DNA from: an uncultured Lachnospiraceae bacterium
GTDB taxonomy: Bacteria > Bacillota > Clostridia > Lachnospirales > Lachnospiraceae
DNA length: 59,438 nt
Direction: 5' to 3'
Assembly: GCA_947630005.1 (NCBI GenBank)
Contig: CANRGB010000003.1
Span: 1-59,438 of the forward strand
Shown here: in pieces, positions 3,992 to 41,500 of the stretch
Layout of the letters: each line of letters begins with the position of its first letter
Numbering within the stretch: the first letter of the stretch is position 1
The notes under the pieces: model-generated
What the model saw: the letters and a program-made list of their open reading frames with translations, nothing else
What the model was told of the DNA's origin: nothing
Databases searched by the model: none
Program-made: the position numbers and the translations under genes

Positions 3992-4008
3992 CAGTTTTAT
4001 AGTTCAGA

Positions 4009-5402: not shown

Positions 5403-5440
5403 GAATGCCGAATCTGAACAGATATTGCGAAAAATTAGGC

Positions 5441-5470
5441 TTGAATCAGGCCGGACTGCTGTTATATACT
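5441..5470 (+). promoter_or_regulatory. Sigma-A-like promoter of folC
   Basis: -35 TTGAAT (5441-5446), 18-base spacer, -10 TATACT (5465-5470), 60 bases before the folC start and 38 bases after the mobile element, so the insertion ended just upstream of the promoter. Confidence 0.7.
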
Positions 5471-5529
5471 AAGGGGGCCTGCCTGGCAGGCGCTGCCATA
5501 AATGAATACACCAGAAAGCAGGAAAGAGC

Positions 5530-6849: not shown

Positions 6850-6990
6850 CTGCGGCAAAGAAGAGCATCATCGCGGCGGCTGCGCCTGATGTGATGGCAG
6901 AACGCGCGCATGCCTGCGGCAAAGAAGATCATCATCGCGGCTGCTGTGCCTGATGTGATGGCAGAACGCGCGCATGCCTGCGGTAAGGAA
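6832..6990 (+). repeat. 64-bp tandem repeat, about 2.4 copies, from the folC 3' end
   Basis: Units beginning GGCAGAACGCGCGCATG start at 6832, 6896 and 6960, exactly 64 bases apart; the third is partial. The first unit overlaps the folC stop, so the duplication probably arose from the folC end and extends the spacer before the next gene. Confidence 0.9.
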
Positions 6991-7010
6991 GAGATTGGAG
7001 AGGGGTACAG

Positions 7011-7166
7011 ATGATTAATTACGAAGAAGAACTGAAAAAATTTCATCCGAGCATGGATGTAAATGAGGCGGAGGACGCAATCTACAGCCGTGACTTTACG
7101 GATGTCACGGACATTCTCAAGGAGATGCTGAAAGAAGAAAAGAAGAACAGAAAGCAGGGGGTCTGA
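7011..7166 (+). CDS. Small acidic/basic protein, unknown function
   Basis: A 51-residue frame beginning MINYEEELKKFHPSMDVNEA and ending in a Lys-rich helix (LKEMLKEEKKNRKQ). Its TGA overlaps the ATG of the next gene (stop 7164-7166, start 7166), a typical translational coupling, and GGAGAGGGG precedes its start. Charge-alternating sequence suggests a soluble helical protein. Coupling argues it is real and acts with the zinc-ribbon/TPR protein. No family recognised. Confidence 0.75.
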   Translation: MINYEEELKKFHPSMDVNEAEDAIYSRDFTDVTDILKEMLKEEKKNRKQGV

Positions 7167-8998
7167 TGAGGTGTATTTACTGTAATACCCCTCTTTCTGC
7201 GATTGATTACTGTACGGGATGCGGCGCTGACATCACGATCCAGAAGCGGATCGTGAGGATCTCCAATCTCCTGTACAATGAAGGGCTGGAAAAGGCGCTG
7301 GTTCGCGATGTTGAGGGGGCAATCGCGACTCTGAAGCGGAGCCTGAAGTTCAATAAGGAAAATATCGACGCGCGAAATCTGCTCGGGCTGTGTTATATGG
7401 AGACAGGGGAGATTGTCTCCGCGCTCTGTGAATGGGTTGTCAGCAAAAACATGAAGCCGTCGGACAACCTGGCGGACCATTATCTGAACATGCTTCAGAC
7501 AAACAAGAACAAGCTGGACTCAATCAATCAGACGATACGCAAGTACAACCAGTCGGTGCAGTACTGCCGCGATGACAATGAGGATATGGCGATCATCCAG
7601 CTCAAGAAGGTGATCGGCCAGAATCCGAAGTTTGTCAAGGCATACCAGCTTCTGGCGCTTCTGTATATGAAGCGGCAGGAATATGAGCGTGCCCGAAAAC
7701 TTCTGCGGAAGGCGGCCCATATTGACAAGACAAATACGACGACGCTGCGGTACCTTCAGGAGATCGAGGAGGCGACCGGAAAGGGGACAAATCTTGACAA
7801 GCGCCATAAACGTCTGGAGAAGGACGAGGGGGAGGATGTTTCCGGCACGCTGCGCTATATGAGCGGGACGGAGATGATCATTCAGCCGACGACCTTCAGG
7901 GACAGCTCCACGATCGCGACGTTTATCAACATTATTCTGGGAATGCTTCTCGGAGGGGCTGTCGTGTGGTTTCTGATCGTTCCGGCGAGCCGGCAGAACA
8001 CGAATGACGAGGCGAACCGCATGGTGAATGAGGCAAACACGAAGCTTGCGTCGGAGTCGGTGAAGGTTCAGGAGCTGGAGGATGAGATCTCCGGATACCA
8101 GCAGCAGGTGGAGGACGCGAACCAGGAGCGCGACGACGCCAACAGCAGGGCGGAGGGCTACGAGGATCTTCTCGCGGCCGCGAACACATTTATCACAGGG
8201 GACGAGTCAACCGCCGCAAACATGGTGGTCAAACTGGATGGAGAAGTGTTTGAAAACAACGCGCTGACGCTGTATAACAGTCTGCTCGGCGCGGTGCAGA
8301 GCAATCTGTTCCAGCAGTATTTCAGTTCGGGAACGACGGCTTATGCCCAGAATGATTTCAATACTGCGGTGACGCAGCTTACAGAGGCGGTGAAATCAGA
8401 TCCGCAGAGACAGCAGAAGCAGTACAAGGATGCACTCTGGTATCTGGCATACGCCTACTACAATCTTGGAAATCAGTCGAAGGCGGCGGAGGTATTCGGT
8501 CAGGTCGCGGAGTATTTCCCGAAATCGGAATATGGAACGCAGGCGCGGCAGTACCTGGATGCCTGGGGGATCCAGGCGGGCAGTTCCGGCGGGGGTGTAC
8601 AGGACACGACCGCCGCGGATATGAGCGGACTCGGGGCGGATGCTCCGGAGCAGACCGTCTCTCCGGGCGGCGACGGAACGGGAAATACGGGCGACGCAGG
8701 TGCAGGGGACGGCACAGGAGCCCCGGCGGGCGATGCAGGCGCAGGGGACGGCACGGGAGCCCCGGCGGGCGATGCAGGCGCGGGGGACGGCACAGGAGCC
8801 CCGGCAGGTGATACCGGAGCGGGGGACGGTACAGGAGCCCCGGCGGGCGATACTGGTGCAGGAGACGGCATAGGCGGGCAGGATGCCGGCACAGGATACG
8901 GGGACGGAACCTGGGATATGTCGGATGTCGCCTGGACGGATCCGAATACCGGGCTGATGTATGACATGTATGGAAATATGCTGCCGGGTCAGCAGTGA
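7166..8998 (+). CDS. Zinc-ribbon, TPR and single-pass membrane protein with Gly/Ala repeat tail
   Basis: A 610-residue protein. The N-terminus has a zinc ribbon (CIYC at 3-6, CTGC at 17-20), followed by tetratricopeptide-like helices, one membrane segment (around 253-273, TFINIILGMLLGGAVVWFL), a coiled coil (around 285-330) and a second TPR region outside the membrane (around 390-460). The tail is a tandem repeat of GDAGAGDGTGAPA. The architecture suggests a membrane-tethered scaffold with a cytoplasmic zinc-ribbon/TPR head and an external TPR domain. It is coupled to the small gene before it and lies between folC and the spoIIA operon. A precise role is not known. Confidence 0.85.
   Translation: MRCIYCNTPLSAIDYCTGCGADITIQKRIVRISNLLYNEGLEKALVRDVEGAIATLKRSLKFNKENIDARNLLGLCYMETGEIVSALCEWVVSKNMKPSDNLADHYLNMLQTNKNKLDSINQTIRKYNQSVQYCRDDNEDMAIIQLKKVIGQNPKFVKAYQLLALLYMKRQEYERARKLLRKAAHIDKTNTTTLRYLQEIEEATGKGTNLDKRHKRLEKDEGEDVSGTLRYMSGTEMIIQPTTFRDSSTIATFINIILGMLLGGAVVWFLIVPASRQNTNDEANRMVNEANTKLASESVKVQELEDEISGYQQQVEDANQERDDANSRAEGYEDLLAAANTFITGDESTAANMVVKLDGEVFENNALTLYNSLLGAVQSNLFQQYFSSGTTAYAQNDFNTAVTQLTEAVKSDPQRQQKQYKDALWYLAYAYYNLGNQSKAAEVFGQVAEYFPKSEYGTQARQYLDAWGIQAGSSGGGVQDTTAADMSGLGADAPEQTVSPGGDGTGNTGDAGAGDGTGAPAGDAGAGDGTGAPAGDAGAGDGTGAPAGDTGAGDGTGAPAGDTGAGDGIGGQDAGTGYGDGTWDMSDVAWTDPNTGLMYDMYGNMLPGQQ
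8690..8875 (+). repeat. 39-bp in-frame tandem repeat (13 residues)
   Basis: Units of GDAGAGDGTGAPA start at 8690, 8729, 8768, 8807 and 8846; the last is degenerate. The 39-bp period keeps frame. Third-position differences between units (for example GGC/GGT, GCA/GCG) show the array is not brand new. Confidence 0.9.
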
Positions 8999-9120
8999 CA
9001 GCGGCGGCGTGACGACGCAGGATGGCTGCCAGGGCGGCACAATTAAGAGGAATCCCGGAGCAGGGGGTATGATACCGGAAACGGACGGTACATGCCGCCT
9101 GCTTATTGTATAGGTCCAGT

Positions 9121-14300: not shown

Positions 14301-15350
14301 GGAAAGCCGGCGGCGGGCGGCGCTGTTTCGGATGAAAAGCCGGCGGCAGGAACCGGTTCCGGTACGGAGGGAAACGCGGCAGGGTCCGGCGCAGAGCCGG
14401 ACAGAAAATCCGCGGCGGATGGAACCGGAGCGGAAAATGGAACCGCGGATCCGATGGCGTATATTTTCGCGGCAGAAAGGGAGGCGGCCGCTTACGAAAA
14501 CGGCTGCTATATCCCGGATAAACTGTATGTGTGCAGAAACAAAGTGGCGAAGCCGCGCGTGTTTATCCCGGTATTTCCGGGCACGAACTGCGAGTACGAC
14601 AGCACGAAGGCGTTTGAGCGTGCGGGCGCGGAGGTTGACGTCAAAGTCTTCCGCAGCCTGACGGCCGAGGATATCCGCGATTCCGTGGAAGTCTTTGAGA
14701 AGGCGATCGGACAGGCGCAGATCATCATGTTCCCCGGAGGCTTTTCCGCGGGCGACGAGCCGGACGGTTCCGCAAAATTCTTCGCGACGGCCTTCCAGAA
14801 CGAGAAGATCAAAGAGGCGGTCATGAAGCTGCTGAACGAGCGCGACGGTCTTGCGCTCGGCATCTGCAACGGCTTCCAGGCGCTGATCAAACTCGGGCTT
14901 GTGCCGTACGGCGAGATCACGGGGCAGACGGCGGATTCCCCGACGCTGACCTTTAATACAATCGGACGTCACATTTCCAAAATGGTATATTTGAAAGTGG
15001 TATCAAAAAAATCGCCGTGGCTTGCAAAGGCGGCGGCAGGAGGGGTTTACACGAATCCGGCTTCTCACGGGGAAGGGCGCTTCGTGGCAAATGAGGAGTG
15101 GCTGCAAAAGCTGTTCGCGAACGGTCAGGTAGCTACACAGTACTGCGATGTGGATGGAAACATCTGCGTCGGTGAAGAGGAATGGAATGTCAACGGATCT
15201 TATCTTGCGATTGAGGGAATCACAAGTCCGGACGGGCGTGTGTTTGGCAAGATGGCTCATTCAGAGAGACGCGGCGGTCTTGTCGCGGTGAATATTTACG
15301 GAGAGCAGGATCTGAAGATTTTTGAGTCGGGAGTATCATACTTTAAATAA
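11385..15350 (+). CDS. purL: Phosphoribosylformylglycinamidine synthase, fused PurL-PurQ
   Basis: A 1321-residue single-chain FGAM synthase that converts FGAR to FGAM using ATP and glutamine in purine synthesis. The core shows LDTYWSDHCRHTTF, FKNETHNHPTEIEPFGGAAT and ATGSSKVHTEAS. The C-terminal class I glutaminase has PVFPGTNCEYD and nucleophile Cys1161 in LGICNGFQAL, with ASHGEGRF towards the end. Between the synthetase and glutaminase lies an unusual low-complexity linker (about residues 961-1023, Gly/Ala/Asp/Lys) with degenerate repeats around PAAG. The stop TAA shares its last A with the ATG of the next gene. Confidence 0.95.
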   Translation: MSNVRRVYVEKKSDFAVAAKGLTHEVKSYLGVNGLSQIRVLIRYDVENISDEIYRTACRTVFAEPPVDDLYEETFPMEQGDRAFAVEYLPGQFDQRADSAVQCVRFLKEDEEPIIRSATTYVVSGEVTDEEFEAIRNHCINPVDSREAGFEKPETLVTKFDEPADVIIFDGFIGMEEEKLKELYRSLNLAMTFRDFLHIQNYFKNEEKRDPSMTEIRVLDTYWSDHCRHTTFSTELKDVTFEDGYYRAPIEGTYRKYLADRAEIYGDRKDKFVCLMDLALMAMRKLKKEGKLQDQEESDEINACSIVVPVEVDGKTEEWLVNFKNETHNHPTEIEPFGGAATCLGGAIRDPLSGRTYVYQAMRVTGAADPTVSVKDTLKGKLPQKKLVREAAHGYSSYGNQIGLATGYVKEIYHPAYVAKRMEIGAVMGAAPRRAVIRENSDPGDIIILLGGRTGRDGIGGATGSSKVHTEASIEVCGAEVQKGNAPTERKIQRLFRREEVSRIIKKCNDFGAGGVSVAIGELAPGLHIDLDKVPKKYAGLDGTELAISESQERMAVVVDPKNVKEFMGYAAEENLEAVEVAVVTEEPRLVLFWRGKEIVNISRAFLDTNGAHQETSAAVEMPSETEKYFTREDVPDVRAKWLDTLADLNCCSQKGLVEMFDSSIGAGSVLMPYGGKYQLTETQTMAAKLPVLNGKTDTVTMMSYGFDPYLSSWSPYHGAQYAVLESVARIVSSGGDYRKIRFTFQEYFRRMTEDPKRWSQPVAALLGAYEAQLGFGLPSIGGKDSMSGSFNEIDVPPTLVSFAVDIADGKEIITPELKRPGSRLVLVKAPRDAYDLPVYGGIMEQYGKFHEDILAGRIISAYALDGRGLAAALSKMAFGNGLGFKIEHNIDERDLFTAGFGDLVAEVSDGQVGNLAVTYTVVGEVTDKGLFEYKNVSIPIGEALAAWKGTLERVFRTDSGIPTVGGGLGLDGKPAAGGAVSDEKPAAGTGSGTEGNAAGSGAEPDRKSAADGTGAENGTADPMAYIFAAEREAAAYENGCYIPDKLYVCRNKVAKPRVFIPVFPGTNCEYDSTKAFERAGAEVDVKVFRSLTAEDIRDSVEVFEKAIGQAQIIMFPGGFSAGDEPDGSAKFFATAFQNEKIKEAVMKLLNERDGLALGICNGFQALIKLGLVPYGEITGQTADSPTLTFNTIGRHISKMVYLKVVSKKSPWLAKAAAGGVYTNPASHGEGRFVANEEWLQKLFANGQVATQYCDVDGNICVGEEEWNVNGSYLAIEGITSPDGRVFGKMAHSERRGGLVAVNIYGEQDLKIFESGVSYFK

Positions 15351-29558: not shown

Positions 29559-30737
29559 TTATTTCACCTTTTTTCTTTTCTCAAGGAAGTGATTGATACG
29601 CGCCGTCGGATTCAGCAGTTCGCTGACGGATCCGTCGTGATTCAGCGTGTCGATCAGGAGCGCGATATACTTGCTCAGATCGCAGCCCGTATAGTAGGGT
29701 TTCTCCAGAAGCTCCGGCGACTGATAGACAAGGTTGGTCGTGAGCAGCGCGTAGAACTGCCCCTGCAGGTAGGCTTTGTCGAATTTCTCCAGACCGTTGG
29801 TAAACAGTCCGAATGTGGAGCAGAGGAAGATACGGTCGGCCTTGCGCTTCTTAAGTTCCACCGCGACCTCCAGCATACTGTCGCCGGACGAGATCATATC
29901 GTCCAGGATCACGACATCCTTGCCCGTGACGTCCGCGCCGAGAAATTCATGCGCCACGATGGGATTCCGGCCGTTCACAATGTGCGTGTAATCACGACGT
30001 TTGTAGAACATACCCATATCGACGCCAAGGACGTTGGCCATGTAGATTGCGCGTCCCGCGGCTCCTTCATCGGGGCTGATGATCATCAGGCGGTCCGGCG
30101 AGATCTCCAGATCCGGGGCCGCGCGGAACAGCCCTTTGATAAACTGGTAGATGGGCTGGATCGTCTCGAACCCGTGAAGCGGGATCGCGTTCTGGACTCT
30201 CGGGTCATGGGCGTCGAAGGTGAGGATATTGTCGACCCCCATCTTTTCAAGTTCCTGAAGCGCAAGCGCGCAGTCGAGAGATTCCCGGCCGGTGCGCTTA
30301 TGCTGACGGCTCTCGTACAGATACGGCATGATGACGTTGATCCGCCGCGCTTTGCCGCCGACAGCCGCGATGATACGTTTTAAATCCTGAAAATGGTCGT
30401 CCGGAGACATGCGGTTCGTGTGTCCGAACAGAGAGTAGGTCAGACTGTAATTGCAGACATCCACCAGAATAAAAAGATCGCAGCCGCGGACCGTATCGTT
30501 GATCAGTCCTTTTGCCTCGCCGGATCCGAATCGCGGCACTTTTGTGTCGATCAGGTAGGAGTCTCTGGAATAAGTCTGAAGAAGAGGGTTTCCTTTGTGT
30601 TCGTGTTCGCGTTCCCTGCGCCACTGTACGATATGGGCATCAATTTTCTTTCCGAGCATCTCACAGCTTTGCAGCGCAATGATGCCAAGTTCACCGACAG
30701 GGATCGTCTCGAGATTTCGTTCGAATGCAGACTGCAT
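29559..30737 (-). CDS. prs: Ribose-phosphate pyrophosphokinase
   Basis: A 392-residue PRPP synthetase, making PRPP for purine, pyrimidine, His and Trp synthesis. Visible motifs: MPYLYESRQHKRTGRESL, DAHDPRVQNA, ISPDEGAAGRA and the PRPP loop VVILDDMISSGDSM. It is about 75 residues longer than the classical enzyme, as in the clostridial long form. The ATG follows ACGGAGG. Confidence 0.93.
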   Translation of the reverse strand: MQSAFERNLETIPVGELGIIALQSCEMLGKKIDAHIVQWRREREHEHKGNPLLQTYSRDSYLIDTKVPRFGSGEAKGLINDTVRGCDLFILVDVCNYSLTYSLFGHTNRMSPDDHFQDLKRIIAAVGGKARRINVIMPYLYESRQHKRTGRESLDCALALQELEKMGVDNILTFDAHDPRVQNAIPLHGFETIQPIYQFIKGLFRAAPDLEISPDRLMIISPDEGAAGRAIYMANVLGVDMGMFYKRRDYTHIVNGRNPIVAHEFLGADVTGKDVVILDDMISSGDSMLEVAVELKKRKADRIFLCSTFGLFTNGLEKFDKAYLQGQFYALLTTNLVYQSPELLEKPYYTGCDLSKYIALLIDTLNHDGSVSELLNPTARINHFLEKRKKVK

Positions 30738-30870: not shown

Positions 30871-31068
30871 GTATCGGATTGTATTTATTTCAATAATTAT
30901 CGACGGCACGGAACTATGGGTATGACTCGGAAAATTTTTATAGATGTTTTTCACAAATTATGATATCATGGCAGTGGGTAAATTCAGAAAAAGCAACAGA
31001 ACAAAAGAGGCTGTCGGCTTCCCGTGATATTGACGCGCTGACGGCCGGCAGAACAGGAGAGAAGCGAT

Positions 31069-32310
31069 ATGTTTAAATACTCAAAGAACGATCTGCTGAG
31101 AGCTTCCTGTATCGGCCAGCAGACGACCGTTACGGCGGCGGATCACAGCGAGGTGACGGGCGTGCTCAGGCAGATCGATATCAGCGGGCTGACTGTGGCG
31201 GAGTACAAAACCGGCCTTGAGATCAAAATACGGTTTGACGACATAGAGACGGCGGCTTTCGGGAACGCGTCGGCCAGACGGCAGATGGATCATCTTGAAC
31301 TGGCACGTTTTCAGAAACAGTGCGAGCGGACCGCGGAGCAGGCGAATCTTACGCTGTCCCGCATGTTTAAGACGGAGCTGGCCGCTCTGGCGCAAAGCTG
31401 CGGCGACTGGGACATAAAAGAATATCTGGAGGCGGAGATCGGCAATACGGCTTCCCTGTATTCGGCGGAGGAATGTGAGAATTTATATGATTTTCACTTT
31501 AAGGATGAGCGCTTTTGTTCCCGACCGGAATTTGCCGCCGCCGTGGCGGAAGCGATGGTACTGTACAGGATGAGAAGGTTTGACAAAGCGGCGGCCCTGA
31601 TCCTCGGGTCGTCAGGAACAGCGAAACCGACGGACACGGCGCTGGCAATGGCATGCCTGGCGTCGCAGATGAGGAACAGGACAGGAGCGCTGTACTGGCT
31701 TGAACGGTACTATCTGAAAGGGCTGGAGACGAAGATCTCCCTGGACAATGTCTGGTGGCTTTATCTCAGGCTCTGCGGAAGGTATTCCGCCTATGAGGGC
31801 GCATGCCGGATGCTGGAGGCCGTCACGCAGGATAATCCCGGACTGGCGGTCAGAAGTCTGGCGTATCTGCTGCTGATAAACAACAACAGCGGTTTTGCCA
31901 TGCAGCTTCTGGATTACGCGGACGACGTTCTGAACGCGAACGAGGCGCTTGAACTGGTCGAGCGCAACTCGGTATATCTGATATCGGACCGGGACAACAA
32001 TTACCGCCGGTATGTGAAATGCGCCGGCAAGATAATCCGGGAAGGAGAACTGCGCATCTACGGGGATGAGGAAGATATCTGCGGCTATGTGTACGATTAT
32101 GTCCCGGACAGAGAATTCGGCTTTATCGTGGGGTGTGATCTGATCAGTTATTTCTTCCGCCGTGAGTCCGTCATGTCGGACAATGTAAACGAACGGATAA
32201 AAAGCAATATCTGTTCGTTCCGGTCTGTGGAAGAGGAAGAGCCGGTCATGGTGACCTTCAAAAGAACGCCGGAAAGCAAGCGCTCTTACAATGCGGTGAA
32301 TATTGTTTAA
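31069..32310 (+). CDS. Sm-like / helical / cold-shock-like protein, first gene of the five-gene operon
   Basis: A 413-residue protein of no known named family. Residues about 10-62 (TVTAADHSEVTGVLRQID, then LEIKIRFDDIE) look like a small Sm/LSm beta barrel. The middle (about 70-330) is helical with TPR-like pairs (YRMRRFDKAAALIL, GALYWLERYY). The C-terminus (about 337-413) fits a cold-shock/OB pattern: GYVYDYVPDREFGFI, YFFRRES and a final KRSYNAVNIV. Both ends are RNA-binding-type folds by pattern; this is inference. Start ATG follows AGGAGAG. It probably binds RNA and feeds into the downstream Hsp70 and HEPN-STAND proteins. Confidence 0.75.
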   Translation: MFKYSKNDLLRASCIGQQTTVTAADHSEVTGVLRQIDISGLTVAEYKTGLEIKIRFDDIETAAFGNASARRQMDHLELARFQKQCERTAEQANLTLSRMFKTELAALAQSCGDWDIKEYLEAEIGNTASLYSAEECENLYDFHFKDERFCSRPEFAAAVAEAMVLYRMRRFDKAAALILGSSGTAKPTDTALAMACLASQMRNRTGALYWLERYYLKGLETKISLDNVWWLYLRLCGRYSAYEGACRMLEAVTQDNPGLAVRSLAYLLLINNNSGFAMQLLDYADDVLNANEALELVERNSVYLISDRDNNYRRYVKCAGKIIREGELRIYGDEEDICGYVYDYVPDREFGFIVGCDLISYFFRRESVMSDNVNERIKSNICSFRSVEEEEPVMVTFKRTPESKRSYNAVNIV

Positions 32311-32374
32311 AAACAGCGGTTCCGCGCGGGCGGCGGCGCCTTCCGAAGCGGAATCGGTATGAAGGAGGAAAAGA

Positions 32375-34303
32375 GTGGATTCATTACGCAGCAGCAGGAG
32401 ATATGCGGAACCCGACGCATTGTTTCCTAGTATAAAAAACCGGGAAGATATCCGTGATTTTATCATACGGCTGGATCTGCTGGCAGGTCTGGCGTGTGTG
32501 AAAAAAACGCGGATCGATTTGTTTATGAGAACCATGTGGCCGCGGTTTATACCGAATGTGCGGTATACTTCCGACGTGGAAGACGACTGCTGGAATTATT
32601 TTGATGAGTACCGGCTCGGACTGAAGATTTTAAGCAGCGGGAGCAGCGTGCAGAAGCGCTCGATCCTGATGCGGAGCTTGGTTCCTGTCGCGATTTTGCT
32701 GAAACTGTCCCAGGCGGAGACCGAGACGATCGATCGTGTGCAGCTGGAAAATGACCTGATCTCCGAATTAAGGGAGATTGAGAGGGAGGAGCAGCTGATC
32801 CGCTCAAGAGTAAAGGAAAACTGTTACTGGTATTTTGACAGGTCCTACAGACTTTCGCCGCAGACCGCGGCGCTGTTGCGGCAGAATCAGGACAGTTTGC
32901 TGAGCCTGTACGATACCATGTACAGAGTCCTGAACCGTGGAAAAGGTCCGGCGGTTTCTCCGGTGAAGAGGACGGCGGTTCCGGCAGGGAGCACGGAGGC
33001 TTCGGCAGGAAGAACGCCAGTTCCGGCAGGGAGCACGGAAGCACCGGCAGAAAAAGCGGCAGTTCCGGCAGGGAGCGCGGAGACTTCGGGCATGAATACG
33101 ACAGTTCCGACCGGAGGCGCGGAAGCTTCGGCAGAAAAAGCGGTGGTTCCGACCGGGAGTTCACCGGTTTCATCCGGGATTTCGTCCGCTTCTGCCAGGG
33201 GTTCGGAAGCCGTGGGGCAGACTCCGACCGCTTCCGTTAAGGTACCGGGAGCCGCAGGGCAGGCTTCGTCCGCCTCAGCCAGGGCTTCGGAATCATCGGC
33301 CGTAAATCCCGCCTCCTCCCGCCCGGACAGAGAGCGCGCGGGAAACAAGCCGCTTTTGTTTATGAAAGTCATGTGTCTGCTGTACGCCGCCCTGACAGAC
33401 CAGGACCGCGGGACGGCAGCGCGGGAGGAACTTCTGAAAAAACACTGGAAGAAGATATTCAAAGATGTTCCATTCTCTCAGATCGCGCTGGGCAGGGCGG
33501 ACGCCATGATCGCGGCCGACCAGGATCTGAAAGCGGTCGATATGCTGTTTAAATATCCGCTGAAGGAGATCCGGAGCGGAAGACTCGTGCGGCGGGTCGT
33601 CGTCTGCCTCTGCGTTCATCAGGTGATCGCGCGTCTGCCTCATAATTCTTCGAAGGATCTGGTGATTGATGAAGCGCTCTCGCTGTTCGCGCGTTTTGCC
33701 ACTCTGAGCGTCGGAAAAGAAGAAGAAGACATAGAAACGTATCTGAAAAAATTCATCACGCCGGCCGGTACGGTCGACGAGAGGATCTCGGAGCTGCTCT
33801 GGGAAAACTCGGAGGCGGTTTCAAGTCTGCTGAAAGCATCCATGGAAGATGTGACCGCGACGGACGGCGCGCGGAAGCGTTCCTGGTGGGAGGAGATTCT
33901 CAGCAAAAAAGATCAGGAGATGAATCAGCTTCAGAACCAGATCGATATGACAAAGATCACGACGGTCTATAATATGGTAGAACTGCTGTGCGGTTCTTCT
34001 TATAATTTTGTGCTCAGCAGACTGTACCGCTGTGCTTACGATTATGATTCGCTGTCCTCCGGGGAGATAAAGGCCCTGCTGAAAACACTGATCCAGGTGC
34101 TCCGGCTGTTCGGAGTTCAGACAAGCGGGGAGGATCTGATCGGGACAAAGATCCCGGCCGGATCGGAAGAGGCGAAGGGGACTGTTTCTGAAATTGTCCC
34201 TGATATGGAAGAAGACTGTGTGGTCTTTCCGGGATGGAATGTCGCCGGCGATGCGGCTGTTCTCCCGGTTGTATGCAGAAGATCGGAGGAGGAGAAAAGA
34301 TGA
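32375..34303 (+). CDS. Helical protein with GrpE-like C-terminus, second gene of the operon
   Basis: A 642-residue protein. Residues 1-185 are helical, 200-320 a repetitive Pro/Ala/Ser/Thr/Gly linker, and 325-500 helical again. The end resembles the Hsp70 exchange factor GrpE: a coiled coil (about 505-530), a helical hairpin ending LLKTLIQVLRLFGVQ (568-582), then a short beta region with FPGWNVAGDAAVLPVV (618-633), like GrpE's GY...LRPA.V.V. The next gene is an Hsp70, which supports a nucleotide-exchange or co-chaperone role; similarity is weak and inferred. A GTG start follows AAGGAGG. Its TGA overlaps the ATG of the Hsp70 gene. Confidence 0.72.
   Translation: MDSLRSSRRYAEPDALFPSIKNREDIRDFIIRLDLLAGLACVKKTRIDLFMRTMWPRFIPNVRYTSDVEDDCWNYFDEYRLGLKILSSGSSVQKRSILMRSLVPVAILLKLSQAETETIDRVQLENDLISELREIEREEQLIRSRVKENCYWYFDRSYRLSPQTAALLRQNQDSLLSLYDTMYRVLNRGKGPAVSPVKRTAVPAGSTEASAGRTPVPAGSTEAPAEKAAVPAGSAETSGMNTTVPTGGAEASAEKAVVPTGSSPVSSGISSASARGSEAVGQTPTASVKVPGAAGQASSASARASESSAVNPASSRPDRERAGNKPLLFMKVMCLLYAALTDQDRGTAAREELLKKHWKKIFKDVPFSQIALGRADAMIAADQDLKAVDMLFKYPLKEIRSGRLVRRVVVCLCVHQVIARLPHNSSKDLVIDEALSLFARFATLSVGKEEEDIETYLKKFITPAGTVDERISELLWENSEAVSSLLKASMEDVTATDGARKRSWWEEILSKKDQEMNQLQNQIDMTKITTVYNMVELLCGSSYNFVLSRLYRCAYDYDSLSSGEIKALLKTLIQVLRLFGVQTSGEDLIGTKIPAGSEEAKGTVSEIVPDMEEDCVVFPGWNVAGDAAVLPVVCRRSEEEKR
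32975..33199 (+). repeat. 42-bp-type in-frame linker repeat (about 14 residues, five units)
   Basis: Degenerate units around VPAGSTEASAGRTP, VPAGSTEAPAEKAA, VPAGSAETSGMNTT, VPTGGAEASAEKAV and VPTGSSPVSSG form the flexible linker of the GrpE-like protein. Confidence 0.8.
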
Positions 34304-36024
34304 GAAGATTTGGAATAGATCTCGGGACGACGAACACCTGTATTTATTACGCGAGTTTTCCCGTAGGCGGCGACAGGGAGGATTTTAACATTGATTCGGT
34401 GAACATCTATTATGAGAACAAAGGGGACAGCGTCAATCCGCCCCTGCTGAAGCAGATGCCCTCCGCAATCTACGGACGGCAGAAGAATGACGGCTCCGGA
34501 TATGAGTTCTTCCTGGGAGAGATCGCGGTCCGGGAGGCAAGGAACGACGGCGCGCCGGAAATCATCAACACAAAAAGGCTGCTCTGCCAGGAGGATCCGA
34601 CGAGGGAGATCGCGTACGGCCTGACCGCGCAGGATATCGCGCAGAAGCTTCTGGAAGGCTGTTGTTACAGTCTGAAACAGAGGTTCAATGAGCGAGTACG
34701 GAACACCGCGCAGTACTGCATCACGCAGCCCGCGGCGTTCGGGCTGTTTGCCAGCAGAAGCATTCAGGACGCCGCGGGCCCGGCGGGCTTTGCGAATGCG
34801 GAGGCACAGAAAGAGCCGATCGCTGCTCTGCTGAGTTTTCTGTATAGGCGTCTGGAGGATCCGGAGAAAGCCCGGGAGATGTTTGATATTCAGAAGCGAA
34901 AGAACGGAAGGCTTCTGACGATCGTCGTTGACATAGGCGGCGGGACCACCGACGTGACGATCCAGGAGATCTCGGTCGGCGGGACGGAGGAGCCGGAACA
35001 GGGATCCCTGATGTGTACCGGCTATAAGATAAAGTTCCTGAACCAGGCAAAAGACGGCGGCAGAAGGGAAGTGGCGGCGGCGAATCTGGAGCCTGCGTTC
35101 GGGGGATATGATTTTGACAAGATGATCGTGCGGCATGTCGTCGAAAAACTGAACAGCCAGTACTCTGACCAGATGGGCAGAGACTACAACTGGAACAGCA
35201 TGGAGGGAAGAAATGAAATTTCCGGGCTGTTTCAGAGGATGCAGGATTATAAAATACGTCTGTCTTCCAATGGCCAGCCACCTTATGAGGAAAACGTCTT
35301 TCTGGACGGCTGTCATCTGTCCTGCAGTGTAAGCGCGGAGGAAGTATACAGCTGGACGCGGGAGCTGTGCGAGGCTCCGCTTGGGCAGGAAGGAAGCCGG
35401 AAAACGGTCTGCGGTATCATCGAGGATACGATCCGCCGGTCTGGCTACCGCGTCGGCGATATTGATTATTTCTTCGTGACAGGGGGAATGTCAAGCTTTA
35501 AGCCGATCCGCGACATGCTGAAAAGAAGATTTAAAGGCCTGTATGAGAGCGGGCGGCTGATGTTTTCGGATTCGCCGCTGGAGGATATCGCCAGGGGCGC
35601 CGCCGTGTGCAACTGCTATTTCAGCGTTGAGATGCCGCAGAGCGTGCTGTACGCGGATCTGATGATCGACAACCCCTGCGGGGAACCGCAGGTTCTTGCC
35701 GAAAAGAATCAGGCGCTGCCGGTGGAGAATACGACGGAGCGCTTCATGAAATTGTCGAATCCCGCGTATCTGTATCTGGATATTCTGTGGGGACTTGGAT
35801 GGAAGGACAGTCTGCTAAAGAGGCTGCGGAGGCTGAGGAAGCCTCTGCCGAACGGGAAAGTGACGCCGATCGGGACGGATATTTCCGTTCACTACAAAAT
35901 CGACAAGCACCAGGCGATGGATATCGAGCTGATCGTGCATGATCCGAGAGGGGAATATAAAGTTACTCTGCTGAACCTTATAAAAGATGTGAATCTGAGT
36001 GGAGGAGATACGGAAAATGCCTAG
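34300..36024 (+). CDS. Divergent Hsp70 (DnaK-like) chaperone ATPase without lid
   Basis: A 574-residue Hsp70-family protein. The nucleotide-binding domain shows phosphate-1 FGIDLGTTNTCIYY (4-17), phosphate-2 VVDIGGGTTDVTI (209-221) and adenosine motif FFVTGGMSSFKPI (391-403). From about 445 a beta-rich substrate-binding-like region follows, but the DnaK linker and C-terminal helical lid are missing, so it is not the housekeeping DnaK. It follows the GrpE-like gene with an ATGA overlap, and its stop overlaps the start of the next gene. Start ATG at 34300 follows GGAGGAG. It probably acts as the ATP-driven switch or sensor of the operon. Confidence 0.88.
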   Translation: MRRFGIDLGTTNTCIYYASFPVGGDREDFNIDSVNIYYENKGDSVNPPLLKQMPSAIYGRQKNDGSGYEFFLGEIAVREARNDGAPEIINTKRLLCQEDPTREIAYGLTAQDIAQKLLEGCCYSLKQRFNERVRNTAQYCITQPAAFGLFASRSIQDAAGPAGFANAEAQKEPIAALLSFLYRRLEDPEKAREMFDIQKRKNGRLLTIVVDIGGGTTDVTIQEISVGGTEEPEQGSLMCTGYKIKFLNQAKDGGRREVAAANLEPAFGGYDFDKMIVRHVVEKLNSQYSDQMGRDYNWNSMEGRNEISGLFQRMQDYKIRLSSNGQPPYEENVFLDGCHLSCSVSAEEVYSWTRELCEAPLGQEGSRKTVCGIIEDTIRRSGYRVGDIDYFFVTGGMSSFKPIRDMLKRRFKGLYESGRLMFSDSPLEDIARGAAVCNCYFSVEMPQSVLYADLMIDNPCGEPQVLAEKNQALPVENTTERFMKLSNPAYLYLDILWGLGWKDSLLKRLRRLRKPLPNGKVTPIGTDISVHYKIDKHQAMDIELIVHDPRGEYKVTLLNLIKDVNLSGGDTENA

Positions 36025-37681
36025 AACAATACATAATTTCGAGAATTTAAGAGACCTTATCGATGTCAGCGCGCTGCCCAAGGACAGCGCCCCGGCTTAT
36101 ACCACGATTTCTATCCCGGATATGTACGGCGTGCTGCTGGAAGAGGATTCCGGCATCACGGAGACCCGGGTGTTCGTGACAGAATTTTCCCCGGGTGACG
36201 TGGAGTATTTTATGGAACTGCTTTCCTCCACGCCGCCGCAGCAGCACCGCTATGATCTGGAAAATATTCTGGCGCGGGATCTGAAGGACTGGTGCTGGCA
36301 TCATGACCAGCAGTGTCCCTATGAGCCGTTTCTGTTAGCCCTGAAGGCGACGGACGGTTTTCTGGGATCTCTGACAGGGGAGCTGAATACCCGGGCCCTG
36401 AGAGCGGTGGGAGGCGCGCTGTATCAGGTGTGGGACGATGAGGATCCGCTGTATCGGAAGGTGCTGCGCAATGTGCTGACAAACTGGGACTGGTATCAGC
36501 CGGCGCACGCGATGCTGGCCCTGTACGAAAATCTTACATCCGTAAATGAGGATGAGATCGATCAGGTCATCCGCGAGAAATGGCTGTACCGTGCGCTCTA
36601 CAGTATAACGGCATATTACTGTCTGTGCCGGAAAAGAAAGAGCACGGAGAATATCCGCGCGCTCATGAACTTTGTCAGCCAGGATTCCCAGAGAGATATG
36701 AACCGGACCGAAATAACGGTCGGGAACAAGCTTCAGGGGGAAATGAAACCGTATTTTGAGAACGCCTCCGAGGAAGAATTCGCCGTGGGGAAAACCTTCT
36801 ACACGGACGCGCTGTACAACTGTTCCAGAAACGCGCGGAGGATCTTTGACGAGATATTCGGACCCGGCGGCAGTGGAGAGGTTGACAAGATTATCAGTGA
36901 GTGGAAACAGGCGGACACGGACGGGAAGAAGATTCTGCACCGGAGCTTAAGGGCAATGTTTCAAAAAGACTCCAATACCGCATCCGAGATAATCGACAAG
37001 GCAGGACATTCAGATATGCCGGATCTGATCCGCGCCGCAGTGGAGATCACGGAGCAGCAGGAGTTCTCTTTTGAGACGCAGTTTTATCTGAGGGAAATGG
37101 CAAAATACGCGGGTTTCTGCGAAGCGTACGCGCAGTATGTTACAAGAAAGCATGAGGAGTGCAGGGGGGAAATAAAAGACGACGAAAGCTTTGTCTATGG
37201 ATGCGCGTTCTGCCTGATGGGACATCCGGAGATGATAAGCGGGCTGTTTGAGGCTCTGTTCCTGAATTCCCTCGGCCAGACAAACGGAAGGTACATATTT
37301 TTTAGTATCCGCAATGTTTATCTGAACCAGTTTACGGAGCAGGTTGAGGCTCTGGTCTCCCAGTGTCTGGAAGATAATGAGAAGGCGCTGTCTCTGGTGC
37401 TTGCCTGCTCGAAGATTTACAGTTCCAGGAATGCGGTAGCCTATCCGGCTTCCTTTGACAGAGTCTGCGAACAGCTTCTGAGCCTGGTAAAGCTGGAGAA
37501 TACGGACTCGCCCCGCTGCGCGTCCGCGCTTATGGATCTGTATGAGCGGATCGTGAACTATCAGAACAGAAGCCGGTATGAGCGGTCGCTGCAGGCGATC
37601 ATCGGGACAGAAGCGCCTTCGCTTCACACGGCGAGACAGAGAGCCGCGGGAAAAGTCAGAGCGGTATACGGATCGCTGTAA
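36017..37681 (+). CDS. Helical protein of unknown function, fourth gene of the operon
   Basis: A 554-residue protein with no recognised family. An N-terminal beta-like part (YTTISIPDMYGVLLEEDSG, about 30-50) is followed by almost continuous helices, including pairs such as YQPAHAMLALYENLT and ALYSITAYYCLCRKR that suggest HEAT/ARM-like or TPR-like packing. It has no membrane segment or enzyme motif. The ATG at 36017 sits inside the end of the Hsp70 gene after GGAGGAG, a strong coupling. A scaffold or adaptor between chaperone and ATPase is a reasonable guess only. Confidence 0.75.
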   Translation: MPRTIHNFENLRDLIDVSALPKDSAPAYTTISIPDMYGVLLEEDSGITETRVFVTEFSPGDVEYFMELLSSTPPQQHRYDLENILARDLKDWCWHHDQQCPYEPFLLALKATDGFLGSLTGELNTRALRAVGGALYQVWDDEDPLYRKVLRNVLTNWDWYQPAHAMLALYENLTSVNEDEIDQVIREKWLYRALYSITAYYCLCRKRKSTENIRALMNFVSQDSQRDMNRTEITVGNKLQGEMKPYFENASEEEFAVGKTFYTDALYNCSRNARRIFDEIFGPGGSGEVDKIISEWKQADTDGKKILHRSLRAMFQKDSNTASEIIDKAGHSDMPDLIRAAVEITEQQEFSFETQFYLREMAKYAGFCEAYAQYVTRKHEECRGEIKDDESFVYGCAFCLMGHPEMISGLFEALFLNSLGQTNGRYIFFSIRNVYLNQFTEQVEALVSQCLEDNEKALSLVLACSKIYSSRNAVAYPASFDRVCEQLLSLVKLENTDSPRCASALMDLYERIVNYQNRSRYERSLQAIIGTEAPSLHTARQRAAGKVRAVYGSL

Positions 37682-37713
37682 AACGCGGTCCGCTTCACAG
37701 ACAGGAGGAGAAA

Positions 37714-40182
37714 ATGGAAGAAGAGCTTATAAATGATTATGAGATAAACATGCTTCTGGACAGCCGCGATCATTTTCGGAGCAGGAGGAGGACGGAACTC
37801 GCGTACTTTTACACGCGTTCCGTCATCCGGTATATGACCAGGCTTGTTTTTGCCATCGGCTGGGATAAGATCCGGGCGAGGGCCACGTGGGAGGTAAGCA
37901 AAAAAATCTATTCAGAGCTGTTCATATACGGGAATGATCAGATCGAACCGGGGAAGTTTGCCAGTCTTTTAATCTCCGGCGCGAGAAGACTGGGGATGGA
38001 AGCTGCGGTACAGAAGGAGACTGCCGTTTTGTGCAGGCTCCGCGATGTGAGGAATAACAACGCGCATTTTATCAACACGGTTGATTTTTCTGCTTTTTAT
38101 GATGACGCGGATGAAGCGTTCCGGCTGTTCGGGGAAATGTTTTCCGGCAAAATCTGCTCCTATATCGTTCCTGTAGAGAATGACGGAAACGGCCGGATCA
38201 TCTGCGAGCAGTTCAGGAAGGGCGCTTCCTACTCGGAAGAAATTTCGCTGGCGGGGGATTCCTTTTGCTGGTCAAAAAAAGGCAATCGGCTGTTTTATTC
38301 CGTCATGGATACAAACAGCGGACTGGTCCGGTATTACTGCCTGAGCCCGTTTCTGGGAGTTCCGGACTTTCTGGAGGGCAAGGAACCGCATTTTCTTGTA
38401 TACGGCTGCACGGAGGATCACGGATACGGATCCGAATTTGATCTGCTGCATTACGACGGCGTGATTCCGGGAAATATACGGGAAGCCGGAGGGGAGCTGA
38501 CGGCGGATTTTGAAGAAAAGCGCGCGGAATACCGGCGTACGGAACTGTTCGGAGAGAACGCAATGATCTTTCCGGAGTCTTCCGGATGGGTGCGGTCGGC
38601 CAGCAGCGACGTTTTTATCAATATTTCCTCGTACCCCGGGTTTGGCGAAGTGCTGAGGAGCAGCTACAAATACTGTTTTGAGATCTGCCCGGTCAGAGAG
38701 AATGTGGTTGAGTTCTGCCGGGACTGGAACATGCAGATGATCCAGATCACGGGAAACGGAGGCGTCGGAAAGACTGCGCTGGTTTTGTCGATCTTGAGCG
38801 AGCTGCTGATGCGGAGAGACCGGTACGGTTATTCAAACCTGATATTCCTGTCCGCCAAAAAAAGCTTTTACGCGTCTGATTTTGCGGACTATCATCCGCA
38901 GGACCATGAAAAGGAAGCGGATATCCACAGTTACGGAGAGCTGATCAGAAAACTTGCCGGTCTGCTGGAGATCGGAGTTTTGGAAGACGACCTGTCCGGA
39001 ACCGAGGATAAGATAGTCAGACAGATAAATGAGAACAGTGAGGATACCGGAAAGAGAAAGAGATTCCTGCTGGTTATCGACGACATGGATTCTCTGGACA
39101 GGAACGATCAGGACCGCATAAAGAAATTTGTTTACCGGTTTGACGCCCGGGTATTCAAGACGATCCTGACGACGCGGGATATCGTGGAGAGTTCGCCGGT
39201 CAGCTGCCGGCTGGAGGAATTAAGCGCCGATCAGAGTCTGGCTTACGGGAAATGGTATTTGGAGACGGTTCTGGGGATTCCCTCCTGGGACGGATGGGGC
39301 AGAAAAAAGGCCGCCAGTGACTGGATTTCTCAGTACGGCGAGGGAAATCCCCTTACGATCCAGATGCTGCTGGCCCTGACCAGAGAGGGAAGGGAAGCAA
39401 ACTATTGCCTGCCTGCAACGCAGAATGAGCGGATGGCGTATCTGTACAATACCGTCCAGAATCTGCTTTCCGACGAGGAAAAGGAAGTGTTTGACCTGTG
39501 CAGAAGGCTGTACCTGGCGCTGCCAAAGGAGGAGAGAACCCAGGAAATGCTTCTGACCGTACCGTATTATCTGTCCGCGGGAAAAGAGATCGGAAAAGAA
39601 ACGTTTGACAGAGCGGTCAAAAAATTTTACCGGCTGCATCTGCTGCAGCCCAGCGGAAACGGACTGCAGTTCCGCCCTTATTCTTCTCTTATTTTGTCCG
39701 ACGAGATCATTCATATGGGTGCAGGCGGGGAAGACGGGATGTACTGTCTGATATGGAAGGCCGTAAAGGAAGATCCGGGGAGATGGCTGGCGATCGGAGA
39801 CGTTGAGAGAGCGCTGATTGACGTTATCATCTCATCGGAGGGGGACAGGCTGTTCGATACGTGGACTGCGCGAACGATCCTGGAGCGGATTCAGGAGGAG
39901 GGCAGTATCAACGGGGAGCTGCGGAGGAGGATCAGCGCATGGCTGAGCAAACACTCGGTCGTTGAGAATGAAAGCGCGGTCAGAACGAGACTGATCGAGG
40001 AGATCGAGAGGACCTGGAAAGACTATAAGCAGATACTAGACAAAGGGACGGACAACATAGAAACAGAGACGAAACTGAATGACGACATACGGAAACTGAG
40101 GGAACTGCTTGGGAATGAAGCAGATAAAGAGATTTCCGGAAGATTAAAGGCGGTAAGGGAGGAAATCAGGGAATATTACTGA
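37714..40182 (+). CDS. HEPN-like domain fused to STAND-type P-loop ATPase, fifth gene of the operon
   Basis: An 822-residue protein. Residues about 15-145 are helical and end in LRDVRNNNAHF, where R113-N-N-N-A-H118 fits the R-x4-H catalytic motif of HEPN ribonucleases. A beta-rich middle (about 150-330) follows. The ATPase core has Walker A GNGGVGKTAL (347-356), Walker B RFLLVIDDMDSL (450-461) and a sensor-like FKTILTTRDI (481-490), then winged-helix and helical regions to the end, as in NB-ARC/STAND switches. STAND proteins with such effectors act in defence or cell death. The HEPN call rests on motif and fold pattern. Start ATG follows AGGAGG. Confidence 0.8.
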   Translation: MEEELINDYEINMLLDSRDHFRSRRRTELAYFYTRSVIRYMTRLVFAIGWDKIRARATWEVSKKIYSELFIYGNDQIEPGKFASLLISGARRLGMEAAVQKETAVLCRLRDVRNNNAHFINTVDFSAFYDDADEAFRLFGEMFSGKICSYIVPVENDGNGRIICEQFRKGASYSEEISLAGDSFCWSKKGNRLFYSVMDTNSGLVRYYCLSPFLGVPDFLEGKEPHFLVYGCTEDHGYGSEFDLLHYDGVIPGNIREAGGELTADFEEKRAEYRRTELFGENAMIFPESSGWVRSASSDVFINISSYPGFGEVLRSSYKYCFEICPVRENVVEFCRDWNMQMIQITGNGGVGKTALVLSILSELLMRRDRYGYSNLIFLSAKKSFYASDFADYHPQDHEKEADIHSYGELIRKLAGLLEIGVLEDDLSGTEDKIVRQINENSEDTGKRKRFLLVIDDMDSLDRNDQDRIKKFVYRFDARVFKTILTTRDIVESSPVSCRLEELSADQSLAYGKWYLETVLGIPSWDGWGRKKAASDWISQYGEGNPLTIQMLLALTREGREANYCLPATQNERMAYLYNTVQNLLSDEEKEVFDLCRRLYLALPKEERTQEMLLTVPYYLSAGKEIGKETFDRAVKKFYRLHLLQPSGNGLQFRPYSSLILSDEIIHMGAGGEDGMYCLIWKAVKEDPGRWLAIGDVERALIDVIISSEGDRLFDTWTARTILERIQEEGSINGELRRRISAWLSKHSVVENESAVRTRLIEEIERTWKDYKQILDKGTDNIETETKLNDDIRKLRELLGNEADKEISGRLKAVREEIREYY

Positions 40183-40215
40183 TCAGGGAATACCTGCCGC
40201 GCGTTTTTCGGAACA

Positions 40216-40298
40216 GCAAAAGCGCTTTTCAGATTCAGGGAGGATAATCCGGGCGGTCATGCCCGGATACCTGTCCGGAAAATGAAAGGCGCTTTTGC
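40216..40298. terminator. Bidirectional terminator between the operon and dnaC-like gene
   Basis: GCAAAAGCGCTTTTC (40216-40230) and GAAAGGCGCTTTTGC (40284-40298) are inverted copies with one mismatch, around an inner perfect ATCCGGGC/GCCCGGAT hairpin (40247-40268). It lies between convergent genes. Confidence 0.65.
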
Positions 40299-40306
40299 CT
40301 TGCCGT

Positions 40307-41500
40307 TCAGCCGTTTTTCAGCTTTTTCCGGATCCGGATGTCGTCTCCGATCAGCTTCAGCATGGTGTAGGAGCTTGAGATCCTGGAAAACACCCGCTCC
40401 GAGTAGGTATCCGCGAACGTACCGAGCGAGAGATTGGTCGAGATCAGCGTGCTCCTGCGCCGCAGAATGCGCTCGTTGAGGATGAGGAACAGCTGGGAGG
40501 AGACAAACGTGTTCGTCAGTTCCGTACCGAGATCGTCAATGATCAGAAAATCGCAGTCGAAAATATGCTGTTCCAGATCCGGGGGAACCTCCCCGTTCCG
40601 CCCGAACGTCGCGTCCGCGAACAGCTCAAACAGGCGGAAGGCGGAGAAATAAATCACGGAGTGGGTGGTATCGAGCAGTTCCCGCGCGATACAGTGCGAG
40701 AGGAATGTCTTCCCAAGTCCGGTATCCCCGTACAGAAACAGATTCCCGAAGGAAGTGTCAAACGTTTCCACGAACTTTCGGCATTCGTCGAGCGCGCGTT
40801 TGGCGGTCTGTCTGGCGTTCAGGCCCGTCACGCGGTCAACGATGCGGGTCGGATAGTAATCGAGTGAAAATTCCGAAAAATTTTCCCTGTCCAGAAACTC
40901 TTTCAGGTTCGACTGTGTGTAGAGAAGGTCAATGACCGCCTGCCGGAAGCAGTGGCATTTTTGCGTCCCGATATAGCCGGTGTCCTGGCAGTCGGGGCAG
41001 TAAAAATGCGGTTCCAGGTAATCTTTCGGATACCCCGCTTCCGCGAGCAGGGCCGTCTTTTTCGCGGACAGACTGCGGATGTAGCCGCGCAGGGCCGCCG
41101 CCGAAGGCGTTCCGGTCTTTCTGTCCAGCCAGACTTCTGGCGGGACAGCGCGGCCGTCCTCCGTCTTTTCGTTTTCAGGAGCGGACAGGGCGCCGCCGGA
41201 CCCGATCTGTCTGTCCGGGTTTGCCTTTTCGCCTGGTTCGATCTGCCCGGTTGGGTCTGCCTTTTCGTATGGTCCGGTTTGTCTGTCCGGGGCTGTCTTT
41301 TCGCCGGATCCGTCCGGAGCAAGCAGCATCGCGCGCGCGCAGGCCGTGCTTGCCGCGGCGATCTTCTCGTCGATCCGGGCAAACTCGGGAAACCGCCCGT
41401 AAATTTCTCTGCGGCGGTTCTCAAGCTGGTGCCGGCCGTCAGACTGCCGCTGCTCATAGCTGCGCATGATCCTGTTATACTGTGAATTGGTTATTCCCAT
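40307..41500 (-). CDS. DnaC/DnaI-like helicase-loader ATPase
   Basis: A 397-residue AAA+ protein of the DnaC family, loading replicative helicase. A zinc site CPDCQDTGYIGTQKCHC lies about 168-184, P-loop LYGDTGLGKTFLSH about 256-269, then Walker B DFLIIDDLGTE and SRISSSYTMLKLIGDDIR with the arginine-finger region. An unusual repetitive insert (about 65-105, around PDRQTGPYEKADPTGQIEPG) separates the N-terminal and zinc regions. The gene follows the DnaD-like gene by 56 bases. Confidence 0.88.
   Translation of the reverse strand: MGITNSQYNRIMRSYEQRQSDGRHQLENRRREIYGRFPEFARIDEKIAAASTACARAMLLAPDGSGEKTAPDRQTGPYEKADPTGQIEPGEKANPDRQIGSGGALSAPENEKTEDGRAVPPEVWLDRKTGTPSAAALRGYIRSLSAKKTALLAEAGYPKDYLEPHFYCPDCQDTGYIGTQKCHCFRQAVIDLLYTQSNLKEFLDRENFSEFSLDYYPTRIVDRVTGLNARQTAKRALDECRKFVETFDTSFGNLFLYGDTGLGKTFLSHCIARELLDTTHSVIYFSAFRLFELFADATFGRNGEVPPDLEQHIFDCDFLIIDDLGTELTNTFVSSQLFLILNERILRRRSTLISTNLSLGTFADTYSERVFSRISSSYTMLKLIGDDIRIRKKLKNG
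41186..41308 (-). repeat. Degenerate in-frame linker repeat in the dnaC-like gene
   Basis: The insert cycles through variants of (P)DRQTGPYEKA, GQIEPGEKAN and PDRQIGSG, about 10-15 residues each, Gly/Lys/Pro/Asp-rich. Probably a flexible spacer. Confidence 0.7.

Follow-up and report, generated by a model that had tools for sequence, protein, structure and literature searches.

Chaperones help immune sensors, and STAND proteins as a class are established to be oligomerising nucleotide switches. We know of no described bacterial immune system in which the system's own Hsp70 machine is constant and the nuclease exchangeable. One of the closest published systems is bNACHT25, which needs DnaJ for the detection of a phage coat protein (PMC12169576) and so gives a precedent for a chaperone-dependent bacterial NLR-related protein. 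Types II and III-A of the CoCoNuTs carry HEPN RNases, and the CoCoNuTs are predicted to target RNA (PMC11090510). In the survey of HEPN proteins, R-x4-6-H is the predicted active site, in which a polar residue, in most cases N, D or H, typically follows R, and an Ex3[KR] motif occurs in many HEPN families (PMC3710099). Here we describe a five-gene operon (W1 to W5) on a contig of an uncultured Lachnospiraceae bacterium (GCA_947630005.1, CANRGB010000003.1). The whole contig of 59,438 nucleotides is referred to as the window; it corresponds to contig C3 in a 222-contig genome of 3.2 Mb that is 82.8% complete. We read the operon, with a probability of about one half, as an RNase system gated by a chaperone, gained by horizontal transfer and most likely directed against viruses, and as a variant of a wider Hsp70 module.

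The five genes lie on the plus strand and fill the whole span 31069-40182. W2 and W3 overlap by 4 bp (ATGA) and W3 and W4 by 8 bp, W4 and W5 do not overlap, and a purine-rich Shine-Dalgarno-like site precedes all five starts. An earlier note, made from the sequence of the window by itself, had described this layout of strand, overlaps and ribosome sites correctly. It had also remarked that codon use resembles that of the core genes, and had allowed that the operon might be a long-held housekeeping regulator. The remark on composition is borne out: codon distances from W1-W5 to the comparison genes are 0.063-0.083, where those 15 genes, a 'core' set that includes a MmeI gene itself perhaps acquired, span 0.053-0.146, and the GC content of W1-W5 is 0.515-0.55. 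The housekeeping suggestion is contradicted by the site and by the distribution of the genes.

The operon lies between prs and a dnaI-like gene. Thirty prs-dnaI loci were compared, one of them from the genome of the window, with 16 further dnaI-bearing genomes outside the comparison. In 29/29 fetched congeneric loci the prs and dnaI matches are 32-315 bp apart, as measured between match ends rather than gene ends; the dnaI-like gene is present in 46 of 47 genus genomes. When the intergenic DNA was compared by eye with that of three congeners, the window tracked them through the conserved ATTTATTTCAATAA (30883-30896) and then diverged, which places the left edge of the insert directly after this sequence; the right edge was not located. 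Since the site is empty in all 29 congeneric loci, about 9.4 kb was either gained here or lost elsewhere, and gain is simpler.

Of 397 family genomes searched for W3 at E 1e-13, only its own gave a match. W5 had no other carrier among 150 family genomes or 47 genus genomes, and W1 had none among 200 family genomes and no match in plasmids; W5 gave two partial plasmid matches, to the NB-ARC region only. No relative of W1, W3 or W5 was found among viral contigs, or of W3 or W1 among genome contigs, in scans that may omit records near the own genome. Near-universal presence in related genomes, raised in the earlier note, was thus not seen. The empty site and the rarity of W3 indicate that core-like codon use did not mean core genes; with codon distance inside the range of the comparison genes and GC like that of the neighbours, an old transfer or a donor of similar composition is indicated. 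On these comparisons the operon looks acquired, not housekeeping.

W3 is an Hsp70 (Pfam E 7e-13) in which both phosphate loops are intact (GIDLGTTN and DIGGGT). Only 180 residues follow the GG-motif of its nucleotide-binding domain, where nine DnaK and phage DnaK-like rows have 273-317, and W3 is therefore lidless, as had been read from the sequence earlier. At the motif itself W3 reads GGMS where DnaK reads GGS[ST], so that it departs from DnaK in both lid and motif. Comparison with an f74 Hsp70 (f74 and f92 are families in which relatives were found, see below) gave a blastp E of 5e-37. A tree of 19 Hsp70s was made with rows cut to 640 residues and with the Klebsiella Hsp70 left out; nine module rows form one side of a branch with support 100/100, and W3 stands beside f92 (90/84) inside an f92-f74 group (96/97). 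The PADLOC model PDC-M61B matched W3 at E 0.015.

With W3 as query, seven other genomes matched among 398 of the phylum; five of them belong to f74 and the remaining two to f92. The Hsp70 genes of both families adjoin genes for a HEAT- or helical-repeat protein, a coiled-coil (CC) protein and a metallo-beta-lactamase (MBL) protein. Matches to the f92 Hsp70 were found in 255 plasmid records; among those listed, most are ordinary Hsp70, judging by identity and label. Three of the 255 were examined: the two best, Klebsiella grimontii pNY3A (locus L022) and Priestia megaterium pNCT2_2 (L023), carry this MBL-bearing operon, and the third is without it. A second, compact module lies in the genome of the window (L055, G000:C6:18001-38000, at 3837-9096), with an MBL protein, a coiled coil and an Hsp70 with a long extension; Hsp70 of this compact type occurs in 3 of 150 family genomes, the own genome and two of 149 others. 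One further module locus (L198) came from a class search at a threshold of E 1e-60, at which weaker members may be missed, and two of its hits, G796 and G853, were left unclassified.

The module was tallied by profile matches at E 1e-4 over the 13 loci outside the window. These loci are not independent (five are f74, two are near-identical f92 loci and one is from the own genome), and the MBL, CC, HEAT and Hsp70 profiles were built partly from the same loci. An MBL protein is present in 13/13, a coiled-coil protein in 13/13 (the profile of the W2-like end matched eight, the f74 profile five), and 9/13 encode a HEAT protein separately. The Hsp70 carries GGM[ST] in 12/13; that of Klebsiella, the thirteenth, is divided over two frames and went unscored. 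Three comparison loci with ordinary Hsp70 gave no match to any partner profile. The order CC-Hsp70-HEAT is common to the window, the Klebsiella and Priestia plasmids and L015/L016. The MBL profile found no match among the reading frames of the window at E 1e-4, and the operon is therefore a variant of the module, not an ordinary member. This Hsp70 core shared with MBL operons, which the earlier note missed because it is invisible without relatives, is the best evidence on function.

Five MBL proteins were scanned with Pfam. RMMBL was over the cut-off in three of them and Beta-Casp also in two: in the Klebsiella and Priestia proteins both domains were over their cut-offs, and in the f92 protein RMMBL was over and Beta-Casp below. 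The f74 protein scanned matched MBL only, and in the own-genome protein RMMBL was below its cut-off. Beta-Casp and RMMBL domains are marks of RNA-processing MBL nucleases. A homologue of the HEAT protein in the C-terminus of the own second Hsp70 was considered and found unsupported (score 16.8), and the E. coli genomes searched held nothing close to the Klebsiella cluster. The module is apparently unnamed and often mobile.

Several copies lie in mobile or defence-like settings. An annotated site-specific integrase lies upstream of the Klebsiella plasmid copy and an annotated HNH endonuclease downstream, and annotated DprA and HNH genes lie downstream of the Priestia copy. CRISPR arrays with a 30-nt repeat flank the module of L015 on both sides (about 4100-5660 and 14460-15040), with Cas7 and TM1802 genes beyond them; L016 has a CRISPR array on one side of the module within the stretch searched. 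A D12 adenine methylase adjoins the module in L073.

Profile-profile comparison was used for the partners of W3. The last 150 residues of W2 scored 33.7 (hhalign) against a profile of four CC proteins, with 121 other proteins at or below 16.3, and in a repeat scored 37.7, with the best of 100 shuffles at 20.2. In a small set, plain HMM search with the CC profile gave W2 E values of 3e-4 to 7e-4. The GrpE-like end claimed earlier for gene 2 stands as a member of a conserved partner family, but identity with GrpE is not established: W2 has no Pfam GrpE match, W2 alone ranked 39th of 128 against a GrpE profile, and the CC family with W2 aligned along GrpE with a score of 21.9 and a probability of only 3.4. 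The own-genome CC protein reached 24.6 against GrpE, with the best of 60 shuffles at 22.4. In the decoy set of these profile comparisons the row named Fuso_GrpE is a copy of Monoglobus GrpE, and several decoys are near-duplicates.

W4, the helical gene 4 of the earlier note, aligns with the HEAT-repeat partner of the related operons. It scored 34.7 over 336 columns against the HEAT-partner profile, with the best of 60 shuffles at 23.8, matched the f92 HEAT partner at 9e-5 (blastp), and has C-P-x-E-P and W-x-W-Y motifs in common with it. Plain HMM search gave W4 an E of 0.0066, with a decoy at 0.011. In these comparisons W3 was read from 34303 (one residue short, its first residue being given as M), and the GTG at 35999 was taken as the start of W4. 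W2-W3-W4 is, as judged from these alignments, a divergent form of the core of the wider module.

W1 and W5 are the parts specific to this operon. The end of W1 aligns along the entire cold-shock domain (CSD) at an hhalign score of 18.2, the next of 120 other proteins reaching 9.4; the repeat gave 21.1, with the best of 100 shuffles at 14.8. Pfam gave no CSD match there, plain HMM search gave E 3.5 at rank three, and a PDB search returned cold-shock domains as 3/7 matches, all non-significant (E 0.7-1.1). Of the two folds proposed earlier for gene 1, the cold-shock-like end has moderate support, and the Sm-like start, with a weak Pfam SM-ATX match (E 0.18), is only suggestive. W1 was also considered as a remnant of the N-terminal region of the MBL protein; this was rejected (rank 88/90).

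W5 has intact ATPase motifs in its NB-ARC domain, a Walker A GNGGVGKT at residue 347 and a Walker B LLVIDD at 452, and a single RNNNAH at 113, an R-x4-6-H with a polar residue after R; the Walker motifs and an R-x4-H had been reported earlier for gene 5. E60-x3-K64 lies upstream of RNNNAH. Residues 583-822, behind NB-ARC, have no Pfam match, which fits sensing by the partners of W5. Against the Avs4 (AVAST) model the operon scored 10.7 bits, far below the cut-off of 1500. Pfam, NCBIfam and PADLOC gave no convincing name for W1, W2 or W4, and below-cut-off or weak Pfam, NCBIfam and PHROG matches were not built upon. The earlier remark that the set was not recognised as a named defence system agrees with this, in that no PADLOC or NCBIfam model matched convincingly.

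The best reading is that W1, an RNA-binding-like protein, and W5 stand where other copies of the module have the MBL RNase-like protein, as an exchanged cutter. The constant part would be the Hsp70, a partner with a possible exchange-factor role, and either a HEAT scaffold or an extension. RNA would be cut by the variable part, an MBL/beta-CASP-like protein elsewhere and the putative HEPN region here. The Hsp70 core together with W1 may watch RNA, a ribonucleoprotein or a misfolded phage product, and the nucleotide state of Hsp70, set by W2, would keep W5 inactive. Upon a trigger, W5 would swap ADP for ATP and oligomerise, and its paired HEPN domains could then cut RNA, leading to a growth stop or to death of the infected cell. 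Defence role, trigger, complex formation and RNA cleavage are what we infer in this scheme; an antiviral purpose is suggested by the patchy distribution and the genomic company of the module. The interpretation offered in the earlier note survives in part, as a patchy chaperone core joined to a STAND ATPase with a HEPN motif, without its housekeeping alternative. We would tentatively go further, at somewhat less than even odds, and propose that the module represents an undescribed mobile immune class with a constant Hsp70 sensor-gate and interchangeable RNA cutters, in which the chaperone cycle is the infection sensor.

Table 1. Features of the operon and its insert in the window.
Feature	Position	Strand	Description
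W1	31069-32310	+	413 aa; weak Sm-like start, middle without Pfam match, cold-shock-like end
Cold-shock-like end of W1	about 32065-32307	+	from CSD profile comparison
W2	32375-34303	+	642 aa, GTG start; last 150 aa belong to the CC partner family, GrpE-like only in outline
W2 C-terminal part akin to CC partners	33851-34300	+	from profile comparison
W3	34300-36024	+	574 aa; ATG behind GGAGGAGG; lidless Hsp70 with GGMS signature
W4	36017-37681	+	about 554 aa; ATG behind GGAGGA, alternative GTG at 35999; HEAT-repeat partner
W5	37714-40182	+	822 aa; HEPN-motif N-terminus, middle and C-terminus without Pfam match, NB-ARC/STAND ATPase between
Putative HEPN RNase region of W5	37714-38208	+	motifs R113-NNNA-H118 (38050-38067) and upstream E60-x3-K64
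NB-ARC domain of W5	38722-39375	+	Pfam 34.4 bits, cut-off 23.5
Accessory insert	30897-40306	.	between prs (29559-30737, -) and dnaI-like gene (40307-41500, -)

Several observations weigh against this reading. The kinship of W2 and W4 to the module partners is drawn from hhalign scores: neither was matched by its profile (CC and HEAT, respectively) in plain HMM search at E 1e-4, for which both are too distant, and the next best of 90 proteins against the HEAT profile reaches 25.8, compared with 34.7 for W4. The branch of W3 in the Hsp70 tree is very long (4.73), and its composition is odd. The gene order of f74 differs, being MBL-Hsp70-HEAT-CC. Only one operon shows the HEPN-STAND variant, and the proposed connection between the core and W1 and W5 depends on it; the HEPN assignment in W5 comes from the motif, a four-locus HEPN profile having ranked W5 16th of 125. 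Concerning a defence role, the L022 protein annotated as HNH had no Pfam match at E 1e-5, MBL, CC or HEAT matches were found in 0/80 viral-contig Hsp70 loci (E 1e-3; best 80 of 541 stretches), and three of the f74 loci, L012-L014, compared without L199 and L200, share one seemingly fixed chromosomal place, which fits housekeeping there.

This last setting bears on the strongest rival, in which the module is a mobile RNA or protein quality-control system: under stress, Hsp70, CC and HEAT proteins would direct an RNase to ribosomes that have stalled or to aberrant RNA, with W1 and W5 replacing the MBL protein. MBL/beta-CASP RNases and cold-shock domains do work in RNA turnover, and besides the single setting of L012-L014, L055 lies beside ordinary-looking chromosomal genes. 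A patchy distribution (1/397 for W3, 3/150 for the second type), carriage on plasmids and CRISPR or methylase neighbours speak against it, however, as do a STAND switch and a HEPN motif, which are typical of conflict systems; we consider quality control rather doubtful, at perhaps one chance in four.

A second alternative concerns the cutter. If the HEPN-like start of W5 were a helical adaptor and not an RNase, the system would act through assembly alone, and the profile ranking given above, together with an E of 0.11 against Pfam HEPN_Cthe2314, would fit. RNNNAH with its polar residue after R and the upstream E-x3-K are nevertheless both described for HEPN families (PMC3710099), and an adaptor seems unlikely. 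Less likely again is W5 as an independent HEPN-STAND defence protein that shares a transcript with the Hsp70 module and does no joint work with it. Table 1 of PMC3710099 includes proteins in which HEPN occurs with a STAND ATPase, TPR and S1, W5 starts beyond the end of W4, and no second locus pairing W5 with an Hsp70 module was found; but the five genes share strand, spacing, start signals and one insert, and the MBL protein of the 13 other loci is undetected exactly here.

Further features were seen around the operon and the module copies. To the left of the operon lie, by sequence, what we take to be sbcD, sbcC, nfo and prs, and to the right presumably dnaI-like, dnaD-like, murC and glgC genes; these neighbours look chromosomal. 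The window also encodes an MmeI-type restriction-modification protein (1006-3792, minus strand; five MmeI domains, GC 0.469) about 27 kb from the operon, perhaps another acquired gene. Within W2, at 32968-33159, a degenerate 42/84-bp tandem repeat encodes an Ala/Pro/Gly/Ser/Thr-rich stretch. In the Klebsiella plasmid the Hsp70 (L022 9995-11778) is annotated as two overlapping frames, broken or programmed. The Priestia Hsp70 and HEAT proteins (L023 9974-13475) gave weak, partial matches to PADLOC candidate-defence models, the Hsp70 to PDC-M61B at E 8.9e-8 over 66 residues and the HEAT protein to HEAT-ARM_XIII at 1.2e-6.

The f92 module regions that adjoin CRISPR arrays are L015 3600-16000 and L016 1500-13500. 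Upstream of the latter, at L016 13250-16887, a PP2C phosphatase, a radical-SAM protein and a Clp-type AAA gene stand in a row. L012-L014 carry an extra protein of 498-501 aa without Pfam match, and L012 encodes a membrane protein of the Lit family, for which blast found relatives in both L013 and L014; the flanks of these loci we take to be dihydroxyacetone-kinase-like on the one hand and a BadF-type ATPase with a division-like gene on the other. On a Rhodococcus plasmid (L024 7989-13977) an Hsp70 with ordinary GGST, a TPR protein, GrpE and an FtsK-like gene lie together, with a recombinase gene upstream. This is a different Hsp70 cluster.

With the operon read as an acquired RNase system built on the Hsp70 module, the window is a natural experiment in exchange: a related core with a different cutter. 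The detection of infection by an Hsp70 cycle becomes open to experiment, and systems in which a chaperone controls an interchangeable cutter are suggested. A GGM[ST] Hsp70 beside an MBL or STAND gene gives a search signature, which targets genes labelled 'Hsp70 family protein', 'hypothetical' or 'MBL fold metallo-hydrolase'.

Of the published systems, type III CoCoNuTs resemble the operon in their Hsp70 nucleotide-binding and substrate-binding domains, HEAT, cold-shock and coiled-coil parts (PMC11090510), and their HEPN RNases and predicted RNA targeting add to the likeness. Nonetheless, the operon is very unlikely to be a CoCoNuT (type IV restriction) system in reduced form: type III-A has the Hsp70, HEAT, cold-shock, coiled-coil and HEPN parts that are seen or predicted in the operon, but McrB-type GTPase, McrC and helicase families did not pass the Pfam cut-off in any of the five genes, in a scan without dedicated profiles, and W3 keeps both phosphate loops, against a degenerate Walker A-like motif in CnuD (PMC11090510). 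The GAP1-N2 GTPase-centric conflict systems likewise have HSP70 and GrpE, and a subset has a second HSP70 without the peptide-binding domain (PMC7159879). They differ in that no GTPase family was over the cut-off in the operon, again with no dedicated profile run; the words 'MBL' and 'lactamase' occur nowhere in the main text of that paper. Titles and abstract openings in the open-licence literature searched, a scope outside which most subscription papers and preprints fall, gave no MBL-Hsp70-HEAT system.

Like bNACHT25, the operon would have a STAND-type protein depending on a chaperone to detect phage, but the chaperone of bNACHT25 is the host DnaJ, not an operon partner (PMC12169576). The HEPN-STAND proteins of Table 1 in PMC3710099 likewise join HEPN to a STAND ATPase, but with TPR and S1, where W5 stands with an Hsp70 core. 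The nearest relatives are the MBL-CC-Hsp70-HEAT operons of the 13 loci, which have the same Hsp70 branch, GGM signature and CC and HEAT partners as the window. They carry an MBL protein; the window, in which no MBL protein was detected, adds W1 and W5. With no MBL protein detected, and without the GTPases of the published systems, the operon is filed here as a new variant.

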